Below are positions 2,411-35,337 of a stretch of DNA of 41,233 bases, piece after piece. The notes under the pieces are model-generated. The model searched no databases. It saw only the letters and a list, made by a program, of their open reading frames with translations, and had not been told where the DNA came from. Location: positions 1 to 41,233 of the IMG/VR virus record IMGVR_UViG_3300043499_000049; one strand, given 5' to 3'. This DNA comes from a virus. Positions within the stretch are counted from its first letter, which is position 1. Each line of letters starts with the position of its first letter. A program made the position numbers and the translations under genes.

Positions 2411-3061
2411 CTAGCGTTGGTCTTGGTGCGGGATGTAGTAGCACTCGCGGTCGGTCGGGTCTTGCCGCGCGTCAGGGTGTAGCAGCAGGTCGGTAGACGC
2501 GTCCAGAGTGATGCGTCCCGCGTCCACCATCAACTGTGCGGTGGCCTGCATCGCGTCGGGCATCTGCCAATGCAGCACAGCGCCCCCCGCGTCGTACAGG
2601 TAGCCCAACACGGACTGCCATGCGGCCTCGTCGTCGGGCAGTGGGGCCATCTCGTTGGCGAACGCGCCCCCATCCGCGTAGTAATTGGCCTTGGCGCACA
2701 GGATGCGCGTCTGACACTCGGCAATCACGGCCTGCATCAACGCGATGTACTCGCCGGCATCGTTGCATCCGCCCAACTCGTCTGCGGCCTGCAGGGCGTT
2801 CATGGTGTCGGCGTAGATGCTGCCTTGATTCTTGTCCACGGGCGGATAGGCCGCGACGATGCGGTAGTCCTCGGCGGAGTAGTCCATGCCCGCTTCGCTC
2901 ATGCTGCGGAAATGCGCGGAGAGTTCATCTGCGGCCTCATCACGCGTGGCATAGGTGACGGGGGTCTCGTCGTCGCCATCTTGGCGAGTGACGTTCTCCC
3001 ACTCGCCATTGGCGTGGAGGAGTTCGATGGCATAACGGAGCGTGGGTTGGCGTGTGGTCAT
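2411..3061 (-). CDS. Hypothetical acidic early protein
   Basis: A 216-residue acidic protein begins MTTRQPTLRY. ATG 3061 follows GAAAGGACACACC; the same GGACACACC-ATG block precedes the next gene downstream (2369), so the two initiation regions look duplicated. The N-terminal 80 residues, with a tyrosine-rich DYSAEDYRIVAAY strand-like segment, resemble small phage proteins that present short query-like domains, but I cannot name a family. Another reading frame through 2472-2768 is a shadow. Confidence 0.65.
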   Translation of the reverse strand: MTTRQPTLRYAIELLHANGEWENVTRQDGDDETPVTYATRDEAADELSAHFRSMSEAGMDYSAEDYRIVAAYPPVDKNQGSIYADTMNALQAADELGGCNDAGEYIALMQAVIAECQTRILCAKANYYADGGAFANEMAPLPDDEAAWQSVLGYLYDAGGAVLHWQMPDAMQATAQLMVDAGRITLDASTDLLLHPDARQDPTDRECYYIPHQDQR

Positions 3062-3072
3062 GGTGTGTCCTT

Positions 3073-3147
3073 TCAGAATGCGAACGCGTTGATAACGTGC
3101 AGGGTGGCGGATGCCGTGAGTGCGACGACGATAAGGGCGCGGATCAC
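3073..3147 (-). CDS. Tiny 24-residue membrane ORF, GTGA-coupled
   Basis: GTG 3147 overlaps the stop of the upstream gene (GTGA). The frame reads 24 residues, almost all hydrophobic (ALIVVALTASATL core), ending at 3073. It fits exactly between two neighbours with no spare bases, and its last codons adjoin the AAAGGA ribosome-binding site of the next gene. This fit and the single transmembrane-like segment support a real micro-gene, but length alone allows chance. Confidence 0.45.
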   Translation of the reverse strand: MIRALIVVALTASATLHVINAFAF

Positions 3148-3383
3148 AGCGCGGCCTCTGCGCGGTAGATGGTGCGCCCCTCGCGGGCTGCGAAGAACTG
3201 GTCACTGTGCGCGACCCAATTCCAACCCTTGGGCGGGGCCACACCTGCGGCGGGGCAGCACCAGTAAGAGTCACCCAAGGTGTAGACGGCGCAGGACTGC
3301 CGCCCCGCTTGGTAGCGTGCCTCGTTCATCTCCTGCACGCTCATGCCGAGCGTAGCGCCGATGATCTCGTTGGCCCGCTTCAT
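3144..3383 (-). CDS. Hypothetical small early protein
   Basis: A 79-residue protein begins MKRANEIIGA. ATG 3383 overlaps the TGA of the upstream gene (ATGA), which fixes the start by translational coupling. It contains a Trp/Cys pair (SYWCCPA) and a C-terminal segment FFAAREGRTIYRAE. No family is recognised. It continues the chain of overlapping genes that begins at 3547. Confidence 0.65.
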   Translation of the reverse strand: MKRANEIIGATLGMSVQEMNEARYQAGRQSCAVYTLGDSYWCCPAAGVAPPKGWNWVAHSDQFFAAREGRTIYRAEAAL

Positions 3384-3547
3384 TGCGCGGCCTTGGCGCG
3401 GGCTGCACGCTTGGCCGCACGGCGCTCATCACGGGTGCATTGCCACCACGCGGTGACAGCGCCAGCGAGGACTGCAACGAGTGCGAGCAGGAAGAACGCG
3501 CCCATCGTGTATGCGAGGACTTGCCCTACTTGGTCTTGATAGCTCAT
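3380..3547 (-). CDS. Small single-pass membrane protein (first gene of leftward arm)
   Basis: A 55-residue protein begins MSYQDQVGQV. One clear hydrophobic segment (about residues 14-36, core FFLLALVAVLAGAV) is followed by a very basic tail (RDERRAAKRAARAK), predicting an inner-membrane protein with its C-terminus in the cytoplasm. ATG 3547 follows TAGGAGACACC, a strong ribosome-binding site. It is the first gene of the leftward arm, next to the large intergenic region, so it is probably expressed very early. Early phage membrane proteins often act on the host envelope or superinfection; that role is inference. Confidence 0.65.
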   Translation of the reverse strand: MSYQDQVGQVLAYTMGAFFLLALVAVLAGAVTAWWQCTRDERRAAKRAARAKAAQ

Positions 3548-3684
3548 GGTGTCTCCTAGTCAGTTGTCAGTGTGTTACGGTAGGTCAGACCAGAGTCTAA
3601 ACCATAAAGTTCCTACCCCCCTAGCACTTTCTGAGGCGCGCCGACGAGCGGTAGTTATCGAGAATGGTTCGCATATAGATCACG

Positions 3685-3698
3685 ATCCAATATTGGAT
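3685..3698. promoter_or_regulatory. 14-bp perfect palindrome ATCCAATATTGGAT
   Basis: ATCCAATATTGGAT reads identically on both strands. Related half sites occur nearby: GATCGAGATTGGATCG around 3808-3823 and GATCCAAATCC near 3945. A dyad of this kind in an AT-rich intergenic region suggests a dimeric DNA-binding protein or initiator site. Confidence 0.45.
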
Positions 3699-3736
3699 AA
3701 AATATAGTGGATGGGGGTCCAATTATCTGCGAAACC

Positions 3737-3762
3737 AAACTAGCAAGGGGGGGTGCTAGTTT
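3737..3762. terminator. 9-bp stem-loop followed by T-run (possible bidirectional terminator)
   Basis: AAACTAGCA and TGCTAGTTT form a perfect stem around an AGGGGGGG loop, and the 3' arm ends in TTTT. The A-run/T-run layout could terminate transcription in either direction inside the control region. The G-rich loop is unusual, and the stem may instead be an operator or origin hairpin. Confidence 0.4.
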
Positions 3763-4033
3763 TGTCGTGTTTTGTTCGATATTGGCAAAATCGCTTTTTT
3801 ACAGCGGATCGAGATTGGATCGCTAAGGCGCTGAGACATTTGAGCAATCACTACAATTAGATTACTACTCTATAGGGAAAAGATAATAATAAGTAATATA
3901 ATATATGGTTATATGCTACTGTAGCTATATAGGAAACGTCGTCCGATCCAAATCCGCCCCCGCGATTTCGGCCACCCAAACTATGAATATCCCCCGCGAC
4001 TTTTAGGCGCAGCCTGGCACGCATTGTGCCTAA

Positions 4034-4049
4034 GTTAGTGCTCACTAAC
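4034..4049. promoter_or_regulatory. Operator-like palindrome, copy 1 (perfect)
   Basis: GTTAGTG-CT-CACTAAC is a perfect 7+7 inverted repeat with a 2-bp centre. It is the best member of a family found at 4079, 4101, 4197, 31441 and 40527. The form resembles operators of TetR-type dimers; that comparison is from general knowledge, not a search. Confidence 0.6.
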
Positions 4050-4078
4050 CAGGGGTGAGCGAACACTCGTTCGATGAA

Positions 4079-4094
4079 GTGAGTGCTCACTAAC
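4079..4094. promoter_or_regulatory. Operator-like palindrome, copy 2
   Basis: GTGAGTG-CT-CACTAAC differs from copy 1 at one base in the left arm. It lies 45 bp after copy 1, roughly four helical turns, and 22 bp before copy 3, roughly two turns. The sites would therefore face the same side of the helix. Confidence 0.6.
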
Positions 4095-4100
4095 CTGTGG

Positions 4101-4116
4101 GTGAGTGCTCACTCAG
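4101..4116. promoter_or_regulatory. Operator-like palindrome, copy 3
   Basis: GTGAGTG-CT-CACTCAG keeps the AGTG-CT-CACT core. It is the third of four copies upstream of the terminase genes. Confidence 0.55.
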
Positions 4117-4196
4117 GCAAGAACCGTGCCACCTTGACCCCGGACGAGACTCCTGGCCGGCGCTGGCTCCGGGCCGGGACGCACCCGCAATCAGCA

Positions 4197-4212
4197 GTCA
4201 GTGCTCACTGTT
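4197..4212. promoter_or_regulatory. Operator-like palindrome, copy 4
   Basis: GTCAGTG-CT-CACTGTT keeps the AGTGCTCACT core and ends inside the adjoining parS-like palindrome. It lies about 33 bp before the small terminase start. Confidence 0.5.
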
Positions 4213-4224
4213 CCACGGGGAACA
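4209..4224. promoter_or_regulatory. parS-like palindrome TGTTCCACGGGGAACA
   Basis: The site matches the proteobacterial ParB-binding parS form TGTTCCACGTGGAACA at 15 of 16 positions (T to G at 4218). It is followed by a second inverted repeat, GGGGAA-CAT-TTCCCC (4217-4231). No parA or parB gene is visible here, so if used it would bind host ParB; it may also be a chance dyad or hairpin in the 5' leader of terS. Confidence 0.4.
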
Positions 4225-4244
4225 TTTCCCCTATCATCGCGCCA

Positions 4245-4619
4245 ATGGACGACGACCCCACCCCACCTTTGCCGCGGCTGGAGCCGGAGTTGCTTCTGCC
4301 TGCGCTCCCGCTCCTGCCGGACGCGCCGGCGGAGTACGTCAACCCGAACGCGGTGATCCCGGCCCTGCCCTCCCAAGCAGAGCAACTGCAGACGCATATC
4401 ACCGCCGCCATAGCGGACACCCTGCACAAGATCGACGTGCGGAGTCACCTCGAGATGCTCGCGCGCACCGACCCCAAGACCTTCCGGCAGTGGGTGCAGA
4501 TGGCCCTGCCCGGCCCCGCACAGCGCGGGCCGACGCAGGCCAACATCATCAACGTGCATAACGCGCTCCCGCGCTCGCCGCTGGACGCGCTGCCGCCGGG
4601 CTTCGACGTGCATCGCTGA
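4245..4619 (+). CDS. terS: Probable terminase small subunit
   Basis: A 124-residue protein begins MDDDPTPPLP. It ends 1 bp before the large terminase, the usual position of the small subunit, which recognises the packaging site and activates the ATPase. The N-terminal 45 residues are Pro/Leu-rich and likely flexible; residues about 50-90 form a helical region with FRQWVQMALP, typical of phage small-subunit C-terminal parts; the end (NVHNALPRSPLDALPPG) also fits. No classic helix-turn-helix is obvious. The frame is open from 4083, but the upstream part runs through the palindromes, so ATG 4245 is preferred although its ribosome-binding site is weak. Confidence 0.65.
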   Translation: MDDDPTPPLPRLEPELLLPALPLLPDAPAEYVNPNAVIPALPSQAEQLQTHITAAIADTLHKIDVRSHLEMLARTDPKTFRQWVQMALPGPAQRGPTQANIINVHNALPRSPLDALPPGFDVHR

Positions 4620-4620
4620 C

Positions 4621-5967
4621 GTGTACCGCCCGCGCAGTTTCTTCACCGCGTTTCACAACCGCGCCAAGCGGTGGAGTGTCCTGGTCTGCCATCGCCGCGC
4701 CGGCAAGACGGTGGCCGCGATCAACGACATCGTGGCGCGCGCCTTGAATACCGCGAAGGTGGTCTCTCCCAACCCGCCGCAGTACGCCTACATCGCGCCG
4801 TTCCGCGAGCAGGCGAAGCGGGTGGCGTGGGACTACCTGATGCGCGCCACCGCGGCGCCGGGGATGCGGACGGCGACCAACATTGCGGACTTGACCTGCA
4901 CCCTGTTCAACGGCACCAAGGTCATGCTGTTTGGTGCCGACAACCCCGACGCCATACGCGGCATCTACCTGGACGGCGTGGTCATCGACGAGCCGGCGAT
5001 GATGCGTCCCAGAGTCTTTTCGGAGGTCATACGACCTCTCCTGGCCGATCGCAAGGGGTGGTGCGTGTTCATCGGCACGCCGGCGGGGAAGAACGAGTTT
5101 TGGCGACTGCGCGAGGAAGCGCGTAACAACCCCGACGAGTGGTTCTACATGGAGCTGCGCGCGTCACAGTCGGGCATCCTCGATGAGGCGGAACTGAAGG
5201 GCGCGCAGCGCGTGATGAGCGAGGACGAGTACCTGCAGGAGTTCGAGTGCAGCTTCGACGCCGCGATCCGCGGTGCCTATTTCGGCAAGATCCTGAACGA
5301 GATGGGCAACCGCATCGGCTACTACCCGCACGATCCCGTGCTGCCGGTTCATGTGAGCCTTGACCTGGGCTACACCGACAGTACGGCGCTGTGGTACTGG
5401 CAGGCGCTCGGCAACGAGCTGCGCTACATCCGCGCCGAGGAGCACTCGGGCCTGGCCCTCTCGGATTACGTTGACATCATGCGCGCGCAGCCCTACGTCT
5501 ACGGCGACGTGTGGCTACCGCACGATGCGCGAGCGCGTTCGCTGCAGACAGGCCGCAGCATCCTGGAGCTTCTGCGTTACCAGCATGGCATCAAGTGCGA
5601 CATCGCGCCGGAGTTTAGCGTGCAGCAGGGGATTCAATCCGCGCGGTTCGTACTGACCTCCGCGACTACTTACATCAATGCCGACGGGTGTGCAGAGGCG
5701 ATCGAGGCGCTGCGCCAGTACCAGCGCGAGTTTGACGACAAGAAACAGGCATTCAAAGAGCAGCCGAAACATGATTGGACCTCCCACTACGCCGATTCTT
5801 TCCGTTATAGTTCGCTGGTCGCGCATCGCGGGGCGCGAGATTCGGTCAACCGGATAACTCCTCAAAACACACCACTCAGGTACGACCCGACCAAGCCGTT
5901 CGGGGGAAATGTGCGTTTGGAGGACTGTTGGGGCACGGTCCCACAATCCGCGGAGTTGAGGTACTGA
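4621..5967 (+). CDS. terL: Terminase large subunit (DNA packaging ATPase-nuclease)
   Basis: A 448-residue protein drives ATP-dependent packaging of phage DNA into the prohead and cuts the concatemer. Visible elements: Walker A CHRRAGKT (residues 23-30), Walker B GVVIDE (119-124), the IGTPAG coupling-type motif (151-156), and an RNase H-like nuclease domain with acidic residues D248 (SLDLGYTD), D302 (LPHDA) and D392 (HYADSFRY). The start is GTG 4621, one base after the terS stop. The length is typical for podophage TerL. It is followed after 3 bp by the portal gene. Confidence 0.95.
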   Translation: MYRPRSFFTAFHNRAKRWSVLVCHRRAGKTVAAINDIVARALNTAKVVSPNPPQYAYIAPFREQAKRVAWDYLMRATAAPGMRTATNIADLTCTLFNGTKVMLFGADNPDAIRGIYLDGVVIDEPAMMRPRVFSEVIRPLLADRKGWCVFIGTPAGKNEFWRLREEARNNPDEWFYMELRASQSGILDEAELKGAQRVMSEDEYLQEFECSFDAAIRGAYFGKILNEMGNRIGYYPHDPVLPVHVSLDLGYTDSTALWYWQALGNELRYIRAEEHSGLALSDYVDIMRAQPYVYGDVWLPHDARARSLQTGRSILELLRYQHGIKCDIAPEFSVQQGIQSARFVLTSATTYINADGCAEAIEALRQYQREFDDKKQAFKEQPKHDWTSHYADSFRYSSLVAHRGARDSVNRITPQNTPLRYDPTKPFGGNVRLEDCWGTVPQSAELRY

Positions 5968-32880: not shown

Positions 32881-33200
32881 TCGGGGAAGTCCGGCAGCTC
32901 GGGGAAGTAGAAATCGAGCGCGTGATACGCCTCGCTCAGTCCGCGCGTGACGACGATGGACGCGCCCGCCTCGCGCAGCTTGACGTGTTCCAACTCCTGC
33001 ATCTTGCTGATGGTGCCCTTCATCGCCTTGATCTCCATGAACAGGATCAGCCCACCGCGGGCGATGATGAGATCGGGGAAGCCCTTGTACGCGGGCGACA
33101 CCATCTTGCGGACGTAACACCCGCGCGAGCGCGCACGGTCCATCACCCGATGCTGGATGTCGGACTCGAGCAAGTCCTTTCCGGCGGGCGCGTTATCCAA
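32877..33200 (-). CDS. VRR-NUC nuclease
   Basis: A protein of about 107 residues if started at TTG 33200. The VRR-NUC fold is visible: ESDIQHRVMDRARSRG, then the catalytic PD of GFPDLIIARG and ExK of FMEIKAM, and a following QELEHVKLREAGA. These are PD-(D/E)XK nucleases with Holliday-junction or flap activity, here next to a helicase. In-frame ATGs at 33275 and 33320 would give longer proteins but overlap the upstream gene by 80-130 bp. The stop overlaps the helicase start (ATGA). Confidence 0.85.
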   Translation of the reverse strand: MDNAPAGKDLLESDIQHRVMDRARSRGCYVRKMVSPAYKGFPDLIIARGGLILFMEIKAMKGTISKMQELEHVKLREAGASIVVTRGLSEAYHALDFYFPELPDFPE

Positions 33201-33933
33201 AGGCGCACGGCCCGGCGTTGGACTTGCGATAAGAACACCAGCGGCAATGAGTTCCCGGCGCCGCCGGGTAGACATCTTCGCGTAGCAACGGAGCAGCGAA
33301 CTCTGCGAATTCTTCTTCAAGACCCGCCTCCTGGGCGCGGATGAACTTCGATAGATCGTCAGCGCGATCGGGTTGGTCGATGTAGTCGCAGCCCACCACG
33401 ATCGCGTCGTGGCCGGGGTAGAGCTTCAGCGCGGCGAGCGCGTACAGGCGCTTCTGCTTCTCATGCTCGGGGTAATACTTGCCGGTCTTGAACTCATGCA
33501 CGCGCACGATGTCGTCGCGCACCAGGATCGCATCGATCACGATGCGGACCCACACGTTCGCGCCGTACCACGGCACCACCTTCCACTCACGGTTGAACGC
33601 AACCTGCTGCTCACTGCGCGCCCCGGCGACGTGCAGATGCAGCAGCCGACGCCGCCAATCTTCGCGGTACGGCAGCGTGGCACCCTCGGGGAACTCCCCG
33701 GTGTTCACCAGATGCGCGAGTTCCTTGTGGATCGCCTGGCCCCGCGCCTGATACTCGTTGTCCGGCTGCGGGATGCGGTCGATCTTCTGGTAACGCACCG
33801 CCAACGGGCACTTCTTGTGTTGGGTCACGACAGAGTAAGACCACGCCTTGATCTTGGGGTAGATCGGCACCACGATCGCCGGCGCGGGCGTCGGACTCCC
33901 CGGCGGGATGTACGGCTCTCCAAATGCACTCAT
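33193..33933 (-). CDS. Cas4/RecB-like PD-(D/E)XK nuclease with Fe-S Cys pattern
   Basis: A 246-residue protein. Features of the Cas4/AddB family: H69 in GQAIHKELAHL, D134 in RIVIDAIL, E147 and K149 in HEFKTGK, then Q160-Y164 (QKRLY). Four Cys at 42, 230, 233 and 243 have the spacing of a [4Fe-4S] nuclease cluster (one distant N-terminal Cys, then CxxC and a last Cys). Likely an exonuclease in recombination. ATG 33933 overlaps the stop of the overprinted WPTP ORF (ATGA), and follows GAAAGGCAAGAC. Confidence 0.88.
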   Translation of the reverse strand: MSAFGEPYIPPGSPTPAPAIVVPIYPKIKAWSYSVVTQHKKCPLAVRYQKIDRIPQPDNEYQARGQAIHKELAHLVNTGEFPEGATLPYREDWRRRLLHLHVAGARSEQQVAFNREWKVVPWYGANVWVRIVIDAILVRDDIVRVHEFKTGKYYPEHEKQKRLYALAALKLYPGHDAIVVGCDYIDQPDRADDLSKFIRAQEAGLEEEFAEFAAPLLREDVYPAAPGTHCRWCSYRKSNAGPCAFG

Positions 33934-35246
33934 GTCTTGCCTTTCATGCTCGGGTCACAGTCGGGGAAGCGGCAGTACGCGGCGGTGCAGGTGCCCGCCT
34001 CGTCACTCCAGTTCGCGCATTGCGTCGATGGCGGCAGCAACAAATTCTTGCGCTTGCGGAGCACAGATTGCGTTTCCCGCGGCACGCAGAGCGCCCACTC
34101 GATTGGGATACCCATTAACCAGAGGGAAAAGTCCGGGTTTAGTTGGCCGCGCTTTTCCGTCGCGGCAGGGGAGCCAGATGGCGTCGGACCAGAAGCCGTT
34201 AGTCGCACCTGGTCCTGCAGGTTCACCGCGTGGCCCCCCGCCTTGCGTGTCTCCGGGTCCTGGCCGTAGCCGCGGAGACTGTTCGGGCTGCACGCCGTCG
34301 GCGTGGCCCACGGCGTCGGCAGCACCAATGCCGCCGCGTCCGCCGGGTTCAGCCCCGGATTCATCCCACGGCGGATCTTCGCTTGGTAGTCCTCCCCGAC
34401 GCCATTGTTGATCGTGTTCGGCGTCGGCCACGGCGCGAACGCTGCTACCGCCAGACTGTTGTTCCATCCCCGTCTGACTGCTTCGTTCTCCGCTGTTTCC
34501 TGAGAGGCGATCACTGAGTTTTGCGCGTTGTTCATCGTCGGTGTCGGCCACCCCACCTGCCACACCTGACGGCCCAGGAGACCGTTCTCGTCCACCGTCC
34601 CCTCGCTGTACCCGTCCTTGTGGTCCCGCGTCGTCGGCGTGGCCCACGATCCCACCAGACCCCCGATCAGCAGCTCGTCCTTGCGATCCCCACCCCGGCT
34701 CGTCTGCCCGCCACCCATCGCGTTCGGCGTCGGCCACGCTGCCATCCGCGCTGCTGTCTCGAGCGGGTTGCCCGCGTTCACTCCCCGCGGATTGTTCGGG
34801 TCCGCGCTCGGGCCACCCGACAGCGCCATCGGAGAAGGCCACCCCACAGAAGTAGAGCCTGGCCCGGATGTGCGGCGCCCCGAAGCCCGCAGCGCATAAA
34901 TCGAGCGCCGCGACGGCAAAACCCTCTCCTTCCAAGTCAGCGTAAACATGGTCGAGCCAAGCAAGCGCGTCCTTGCTTGCAACCTGCTCGCCAAAGATAA
35001 CGCGAGGGCGGCACTCGCGGATGAGATCGAACCATGCCGGCCAAAGGTGCCGCTCGTCCTTGAGTCCGGCCTGCTTGCCGGCGGCGGAGAAGGGCTGGCA
35101 AGGGCATGACCCGGACCAAACAGGTCGGGTGTCAGCCCACCCGGAGCGGCGCAGCGCGTGCGACCAGATTCCAATACCTGCAAAGAAGTGGCATTGGGTG
35201 AATCCGCGCAGGTCATCGGCCCGGACATCGAGGATGCTTCGCTCAT
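33930..35246 (-). CDS. Overprinted ORF with WPTP repeats inside the methyltransferase gene
   Basis: A 438-residue frame begins MSEASSMSGP, in a different frame from the methyltransferase. ATG 35246 has a near-ideal AAGGAG site (35253-35258) with 6-nt spacing. Features: SRLQARTRLLGSTMFTLTWK with RRSIYALRASGRRTSG, six WPTP/WATP-type repeats, and a C-terminal block with GQLNPDFSLWLMGIP and ETQSVLRKRKN. I recall this pattern as a hypothetical phage family accompanying cytosine methyltransferases. It extends 73 bp past the methyltransferase stop and ends in ATGA with the next gene, so it fills an otherwise empty gap. Function is unknown. Confidence 0.6.
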   Translation of the reverse strand: MSEASSMSGPMTCADSPNATSLQVLESGRTRCAAPGGLTPDLFGPGHALASPSPPPASRPDSRTSGTFGRHGSISSASAALALSLASRLQARTRLLGSTMFTLTWKERVLPSRRSIYALRASGRRTSGPGSTSVGWPSPMALSGGPSADPNNPRGVNAGNPLETAARMAAWPTPNAMGGGQTSRGGDRKDELLIGGLVGSWATPTTRDHKDGYSEGTVDENGLLGRQVWQVGWPTPTMNNAQNSVIASQETAENEAVRRGWNNSLAVAAFAPWPTPNTINNGVGEDYQAKIRRGMNPGLNPADAAALVLPTPWATPTACSPNSLRGYGQDPETRKAGGHAVNLQDQVRLTASGPTPSGSPAATEKRGQLNPDFSLWLMGIPIEWALCVPRETQSVLRKRKNLLLPPSTQCANWSDEAGTCTAAYCRFPDCDPSMKGKT

Positions 35247-35337
35247 CAACTTCTCCTTGGGCGATCAGCCCGGCCTTCATTAAATTCCTGAGCCACTCCG
35301 CGGCGAATGCGTCGTTCTCATTGAAGTAAGCAGCCAT
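34003..35337 (-). CDS. DNA cytosine-5 methyltransferase
   Basis: A 444-residue enzyme methylating cytosine C5 with SAM. Motif I CHFFAGIGIWSHAL (49-62), motif IV with catalytic Cys SGSCPCQPFS (75-84), motif VI-like IFGEQVAS (GEQV in place of ENV), motif VIII-like GAPHIRARLYF, and C-terminal motif X LRAAGNAICAPQAQEFV. The long middle (about 180-380) has VADA/VGHAD repeats where the target-recognition domain would be, and this is where the other frame carries WPTP repeats. ATG 35337 overlaps the upstream stop (TGATG). It probably protects phage DNA from restriction. Confidence 0.88.
   Translation of the reverse strand: MAAYFNENDAFAAEWLRNLMKAGLIAQGEVDERSILDVRADDLRGFTQCHFFAGIGIWSHALRRSGWADTRPVWSGSCPCQPFSAAGKQAGLKDERHLWPAWFDLIRECRPRVIFGEQVASKDALAWLDHVYADLEGEGFAVAALDLCAAGFGAPHIRARLYFCGVAFSDGAVGWPERGPEQSAGSERGQPARDSSADGSVADAERDGWRADEPGWGSQGRAADRGSGGIVGHADDAGPQGRVQRGDGGRERSPGPSGVAGGVADTDDEQRAKLSDRLSGNSGERSSQTGMEQQSGGSSVRAVADAEHDQQWRRGGLPSEDPPWDESGAEPGGRGGIGAADAVGHADGVQPEQSPRLRPGPGDTQGGGPRGEPAGPGATNGFWSDAIWLPCRDGKARPTKPGLFPLVNGYPNRVGALRAAGNAICAPQAQEFVAAAIDAMRELE

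Follow-up and report, generated by a model that had tools for sequence, protein, structure and literature searches.

Two-polypeptide C5-cytosine methyltransferases have been described before. In M.EcoHK31I (YGGCCR), motifs I-VIII and X and a predicted recognition domain lie in the large subunit, and motif IX is found alone in the small polypeptide (PMC3404938). The gene for its large subunit also contains, in a different frame, the coding sequence of the small one. In M.AquI (CYCGRG), it is motifs IX and X that are held by the small subunit (PMC3404938). A different solution is represented by the multispecific C5 methyltransferases of Bacillus phages (SPR, phi3T type), in which several contiguous recognition units of ~40 residues sit in frame with the catalytic domain on one polypeptide. 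Finally, an out-of-frame HNH insertion is known from the methylase of the mycobacteriophage ShiLan (PMC11855218), and a survey of Paenibacillus phages gives two DNA-cytosine methyltransferases without comment (PMC6070908). In the open-licence literature that we searched, which did not include the original EcoHK31I paper, we found no description of the overlap reported here.

The window, i.e. the whole 41,233-nucleotide stretch of the viral record IMGVR_UViG_3300043499_000049, encodes on its minus strand a methyltransferase, M, and in the +1 frame of M a second protein, W, the two sharing 1,244 bp. The original prediction had claimed a 444-codon methyltransferase overlapped on the same strand by a 438-codon ORF, with an AAGGAG of its own 6 nt before an ATG at 35246, a 73-bp extension past the M stop that ends in ATGA coupling to the nuclease gene, and repeated WPTP/WATP motifs followed by a distinct C-terminal block, GQLNPDFSLWLMG. 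All of these coordinates and features were verified; W has six W[PA][TS]P units as well as GQLNPDFSLWLMG. The M stop ends at 34003 and the W TGA occupies 33932-33930. The features are as follows:

34003..35337, minus strand: M, 444 aa, ATG at 35337, catalytic C5-cytosine methyltransferase subunit (activity inferred; PF00145, E 9e-14; phrog_363, 249 bits)
35253..35258, minus strand: AAGGAG Shine-Dalgarno, 6 nt 5′ of the W ATG
33930..35246, minus strand: W, 438 aa, ATG at 35246, +1-frame overlapping protein and proposed specificity subunit (phrog_1008, 86 bits)
33930..33933, minus strand: ATGA, the W stop overlapping the start of the nuclease gene (33193-33933)
34975..35184, minus strand: M motif I FAGIG (35170-35184), motif IV PCQPFS (35086-35103) and motif VI-equivalent GEQVAS (34975-34992)
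34855..34881, minus strand: M motif VIII region GAPHIRARL
34186..34824, minus strand: M residues 172-384, predicted disordered near-neutral linker where a recognition domain and motif IX are expected
34066..34080, minus strand: M motif X core AGNAI (C-terminal helices, pLDDT 76-95)
34866..35039, minus strand: W residues 70-127, predicted helix and beta-hairpin core (AF2), overlapping the M catalytic domain
34737..34841, minus strand: W unit 1 (WPSP...)
34647..34736, minus strand: W unit 2 (WPTPNAMGGGQTSRGGDRKDELL...), homologous to an in-frame mycobacteriophage unit
34551..34646, minus strand: W unit 3 (WATPTTRDHKDGYSEG...)
34431..34550, minus strand: W unit 4 (WPTPTMNNAQNS...)
34311..34430, minus strand: W unit 5 (WPTPNTINNGVGEDY...)
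34149..34310, minus strand: W unit 6 and a spacer reaching the motif-IX-like segment
34080..34148, minus strand: W residues 367-389, GQLNPDFSLWLMGIPIEWALCVP, motif-IX-like segment (hhalign; pLDDT about 80 at 371-380)

Only the exact start of W is left in some doubt. Many relatives begin W a few codons later, at an ATG made by the M codons for 'DV', and because the equivalent of this ATG is present in the window at 35228, the start is uncertain by six codons, either position being possible.

Long open frames in GC-rich DNA call for caution, and W could be an untranslated shadow of M that results from GC-rich codon choice and the conservation of M. High GC does lengthen chance frames, and part of the W-profile signal persists after synonymous shuffling (84-96 bits). 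The stop counts speak against this reading. In the window, when M codons are permuted synonymously, 4.2 stops would be expected in the W frame, where none is observed (P = 0.0014), and the third frame has 15 stops versus 15.6 expected. Likewise, a W profile made without the window scores the window at 280.7 bits, as compared to 84 +/- 14 for the shuffles (maximum 132).

The same holds well beyond the window. W was matched in 73 phage records by tblastn, and all 250 distinct loci, drawn from viral contigs by M (80) and by W (80), from bacterial genomes by W (80) and from annotated phages, have it in the +1 frame of M. The loci taken were those with the best scores, and phages containing W had supplied the seeds of the M profile, a caveat for loci ascertained through M. 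Across the 54 testable loci found via M alone, the 15,364 overlapping codons contain no stop in +1 (166 expected) and 636 stops in +2 (594 expected). In relatives, stops in the W frame are frequent 5′ of the W start and near absent 3′ of it, synonymous shuffling reduces the W-profile score in all 203 loci (203/203), and the M frame has no stop through the WPTP part, with W-synonymous shuffles predicting 343. Two checks proposed with the original prediction thus have an answer: stops in the W frame of close relatives are almost absent, and W homologues outside mere shadow calls exist in moderate-GC phages such as Vaitephage, ZCEC5, N15 and epsilon15 (methyltransferase locus GC 0.46-0.52), which argues against a shadow because chance open frames are rare at such GC. 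It follows a similar pattern that an ATG with a Shine-Dalgarno sequence is found near the W start in 131/166 loci, compared to 36 expected from M codon shuffles, and that the arginine of VDxRSI is encoded by AGG or AGA 71 times (35 expected), a codon choice that builds AGGAG. In the absence of expression data, this enrichment of start signals is indirect evidence from which translation of W may be inferred.

Codon-level selection on W could be determined directly, albeit in relatives rather than in the window, because the window itself has no close relatives. To this end, 43 independent pairs of 80-98.5% identity were compared and substitutions classed by their effect in each frame. The single-coded start of M behaves as M only (dN/dS 0.039 for M, about 1.1-2.1 for W). 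Over the catalytic part, both frames are constrained, with 0.061 for M and 0.285 [0.21-0.37] for W. In the WPTP part, W is at 0.080 [0.06-0.11] and M at 0.67 [0.42-1.10], i.e. not clearly below neutral, and 359/427 changes fall at M codon position 1, which is W position 3. In the last part, near motif X, dN/dS is 0.19 for each of M and W. In these relatives, purifying selection thus acts on both frames over the same DNA, the middle part constrains W only, and the dominant constrained frame switches along the overlap, passing from M to W near motif VIII.

A distant, Paenibacillus-type methyltransferase family (Firmicute and marine phages), which was seeded from an annotated methyltransferase, unlike the W-containing M seeds used above, has 0.68 stops per locus in +1 versus 5.29 expected at a GC of 0.38-0.61. 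After motif VIII, dN/dS in this family is 0.06 for W and 0.69 for M. The dual-coding pattern is repeated here, albeit on small counts.

Taken on stop counts including those of low-GC relatives, start signals, a W dN/dS well below 1 with its changes at W position 3, profile shuffles and the distant family, the shadow reading is contradicted at the sequence level and all but excluded. An RNA or DNA element instead of a protein is not favoured either, because constraint tracks the codon structure of each frame. In its overlapping frame, W codes for a protein and is subject to purifying selection, and hundreds of phages and prophages have kept this double coding. The original prediction of dual coding rather than chance is supported far more strongly than its author could argue. 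Its statement that such dual coding would be exceptional held only in part, since the overlap is widespread and C5 methyltransferases made of two polypeptides have precedents (PMC3404938).

What might the two proteins do? M keeps motifs I-VIII and X. Its profile matches the sequence of M.HhaI over motifs IV-VIII only (M.HhaI 72-173), ending at motif VIII, and its AF2 model aligns to M.HhaI with a Z of 15.2 over 170 of 327 M.HhaI residues. Its confidence is high for most of residues 1-167 and again in the C-terminal helices; in between lie about 215 residues predicted to be disordered, mostly at pLDDT 32-50 and without secondary structure. This linker is near-neutral in relatives yet stop-free. 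With motifs IV, VI and VIII and a Rossmann-type large domain, M alone meets the description of a C5-cytosine methyltransferase by sequence and model, its activity being inferred. By dN/dS, predicted disorder and the extent of the M.HhaI match, no recognition domain or motif IX is recognisable in the M polypeptide.

W, for its part, has an N-terminal core at residues 76-125 that is predicted to form a helix-hairpin (pLDDT about 71-91), followed by WPTP units of a median 36 aa, one to seven per locus, and a motif-IX-like segment. Outside residues 76-125 and 371-385 the AF2 model is of low confidence, so a recognition-domain fold of W is possible but not demonstrated. No convincing relative of W was found in the PDB by sequence, the best structural match of the low-confidence model reaching a Z of 4.2. 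Between their motifs VIII and X, Mycobacterium phage Moonbeam gp69 and similar actinophage C5 methyltransferases carry motif IX and LPTP units homologous to those of W, and W units match those lying in frame between motifs VIII and IX in these enzymes (up to 60% over 109 aa, E 6e-26; window unit 2 versus an in-frame mycobacteriophage unit, 67% over 27 aa, E 8e-7). The W motif-IX-like segment also aligns to actinophage methyltransferases, at an hhalign probability of 92.5% but over 23 columns only. L394-L396 have the run LLPTPTxGNATGTNERRGG in frame 0, and L261, L380 and L381 have it in +1.

The actinophage enzymes differ from M and W in that a single polypeptide, read in the methyltransferase frame, holds motif IX and most units, and only the N-terminal W part and the first unit(s) are in +1. 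This family is a mixed case and not a W-free control, as the N-terminal part of W is free of stops there. In L262 and L348-L379, the array seems split, with the first unit(s) and N-terminal W in +1 and later units in the methyltransferase frame from near the W stop; how these are translated is unexplained.

Units also move. Among pairs of W N-domains at least 85% identical, 28/46 differ in at least one unit, and conversely 286 pairs with N-domains less than 60% identical share a unit at ≥80%; these counts include related loci more than once. Loci exchange units irrespective of how the remainder of W is related. By sequence, W has one to seven exchangeable units; that these recognise targets, as the units of a multispecific enzyme do, is an inference.

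The nearest known design is M.EcoHK31I, which likewise has motifs I-VIII and X in one polypeptide and motif IX in the other, the separate translation of W being inferred. Here, however, the region of M that corresponds to the large-subunit recognition domain is near-neutral and predicted to be disordered, so that a recognition domain in the large subunit is lacking, and W adds an exchangeable unit array and an N-terminal domain. A sequence relationship between W and the small subunit is not established. As in M.AquI, catalytic motifs and part of the recognition function would be on different polypeptides; unlike in M.AquI, motif X remains in M and not in the small subunit. SPR/phi3T-type enzymes are alike in having several units but have them in frame with the catalytic domain. 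ShiLan resembles our locus in having an out-of-frame ORF within a phage methylase gene, but this ORF is a homing-endonuclease insertion element and not an enzyme part.

The original prediction gave no function for W; the evidence points, by inference from sequence, to a specificity subunit of the overlapping methyltransferase. As the best explanation, and a likely one, we propose a two-subunit C5 methyltransferase in which the catalytic gene also encodes, by overprinting, the specificity subunit. M and W would be two separate proteins from overlapping frames of one locus that jointly form one enzyme. M would provide motif X as well as the domain for the cofactor and catalysis (motifs I-VIII). 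W, initiating at its own Shine-Dalgarno and ATG inside M, would provide the small N-terminal domain, the array of ~36-residue WPTP units, which may act as exchangeable target-recognition cassettes, and the motif-IX-like segment. Methylation would label the DNA of the phage as a defence against restriction by the host. What the sequences show is coding, selection, homology and cassette exchange; expression, M-W binding, methylation, target choice by the units and protection from host restriction are inferred. Against the proposal stand the lack of protein, binding or methylation data, the motif-IX match of merely 23 columns, and the actinophages with units split between both frames, which a simple two-protein model does not fully explain.

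Two other readings accept that W is coding. In the first, W is translated and selected but stands outside the methyltransferase, e.g. as a separate regulator or counter-defence protein overprinted on M. M and W could indeed serve different roles, and the W N-terminal domain, for which only a low-confidence model is available, has no recognisable relative among solved structures. However, W carries exactly what M is missing (motif IX and the units), its units have in-frame homologues within methyltransferases, and W without M was not found among the 160 loci collected by W. We consider this reading unlikely. In the second, ribosomes would read motifs I-VIII in the M frame and then slip into the W frame, in which the units and motif IX are encoded, yielding one fused enzyme. 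The change of the constrained frame near motif VIII fits this idea, as do the actinophages that resume later units in the other frame near the W stop. Yet W has its own Shine-Dalgarno and ATG far upstream, and its N-terminal part is both under selection (0.285) and predicted to fold. Nor did we find a conserved slippery-type sequence at the M-W junction beyond what both proteins need, and frameshifting also appears improbable. In L156, L161 and L203, W is joined to M in one frame; these were rejected as frameshift signals and look like one-base indels that shift both frames. In L253, a single-base indel seems to yield a chimeric annotated start. For all four loci, natural mutation and sequencing error cannot be distinguished.

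Annotation has largely missed one partner or the other. Most records examined annotate only a single frame of the pair. In one Paenibacillus phage record, the overlapping ORF appears under the remark 'Not called by any program'. A few records have W but miss the catalytic ORF: L007 2591-3145 (Cy-LDV1_g54 'methyltransferase'), L004 2903-3511 (phiKX2_110) and L261 2110-2784 (RPTV1_580). Similarly, the family that W matches, phrog_1008, bears the name 'DNA methyltransferase', but no catalytic motif of a methyltransferase is seen in W; phrog_363 is the catalytic family. In the E. coli prophages L254, L256 and L259, methyltransferase genes with an uninterrupted frame have been entered as two partial pseudogenes each, the variable linker being the apparent reason.

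Some loci have acquired additional elements. L011 (EBPR siphovirus 2; methyltransferase 2501-4996) has an in-frame intein-like insert exactly at PC/QPFS, which begins CFPAGALVLTKRGYVEI and ends VVHN before C; because the W frame has stops inside the insert, W can start only within or after it. In L004 (Komagataeibacter phage phiKX2), an HNH-endonuclease-like ORF directly follows the motif-IX-like segment in the W frame (about 3512-4033), out of frame with the methyltransferase and resembling ShiLan (PMC11855218). L247 encodes a second, different methyltransferase directly downstream (3866-4802), also with a W-like ORF in +1.

With hundreds of homologues and measurable selection in both frames, M and W constitute a long same-strand dual-coding locus in DNA phages that offers a built-in near-neutral segment and, in the actinophages, a natural frame-swapped comparison. 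A bolder reading, to which we lean only slightly, is that of a widespread class of phage C5 methyltransferases whose target-recognition domain has been displaced to an overlapping frame as a separately translated cassette subunit. One locus would then encode a multispecific enzyme. Cassette recombination could change its specificity, and the catalytic frame, being a neutral linker there, would tolerate this. Should W be the specificity subunit, cassette content could make it possible to predict the methylation motifs of many phages, and the origin and persistence of long overlapping genes would become directly testable.
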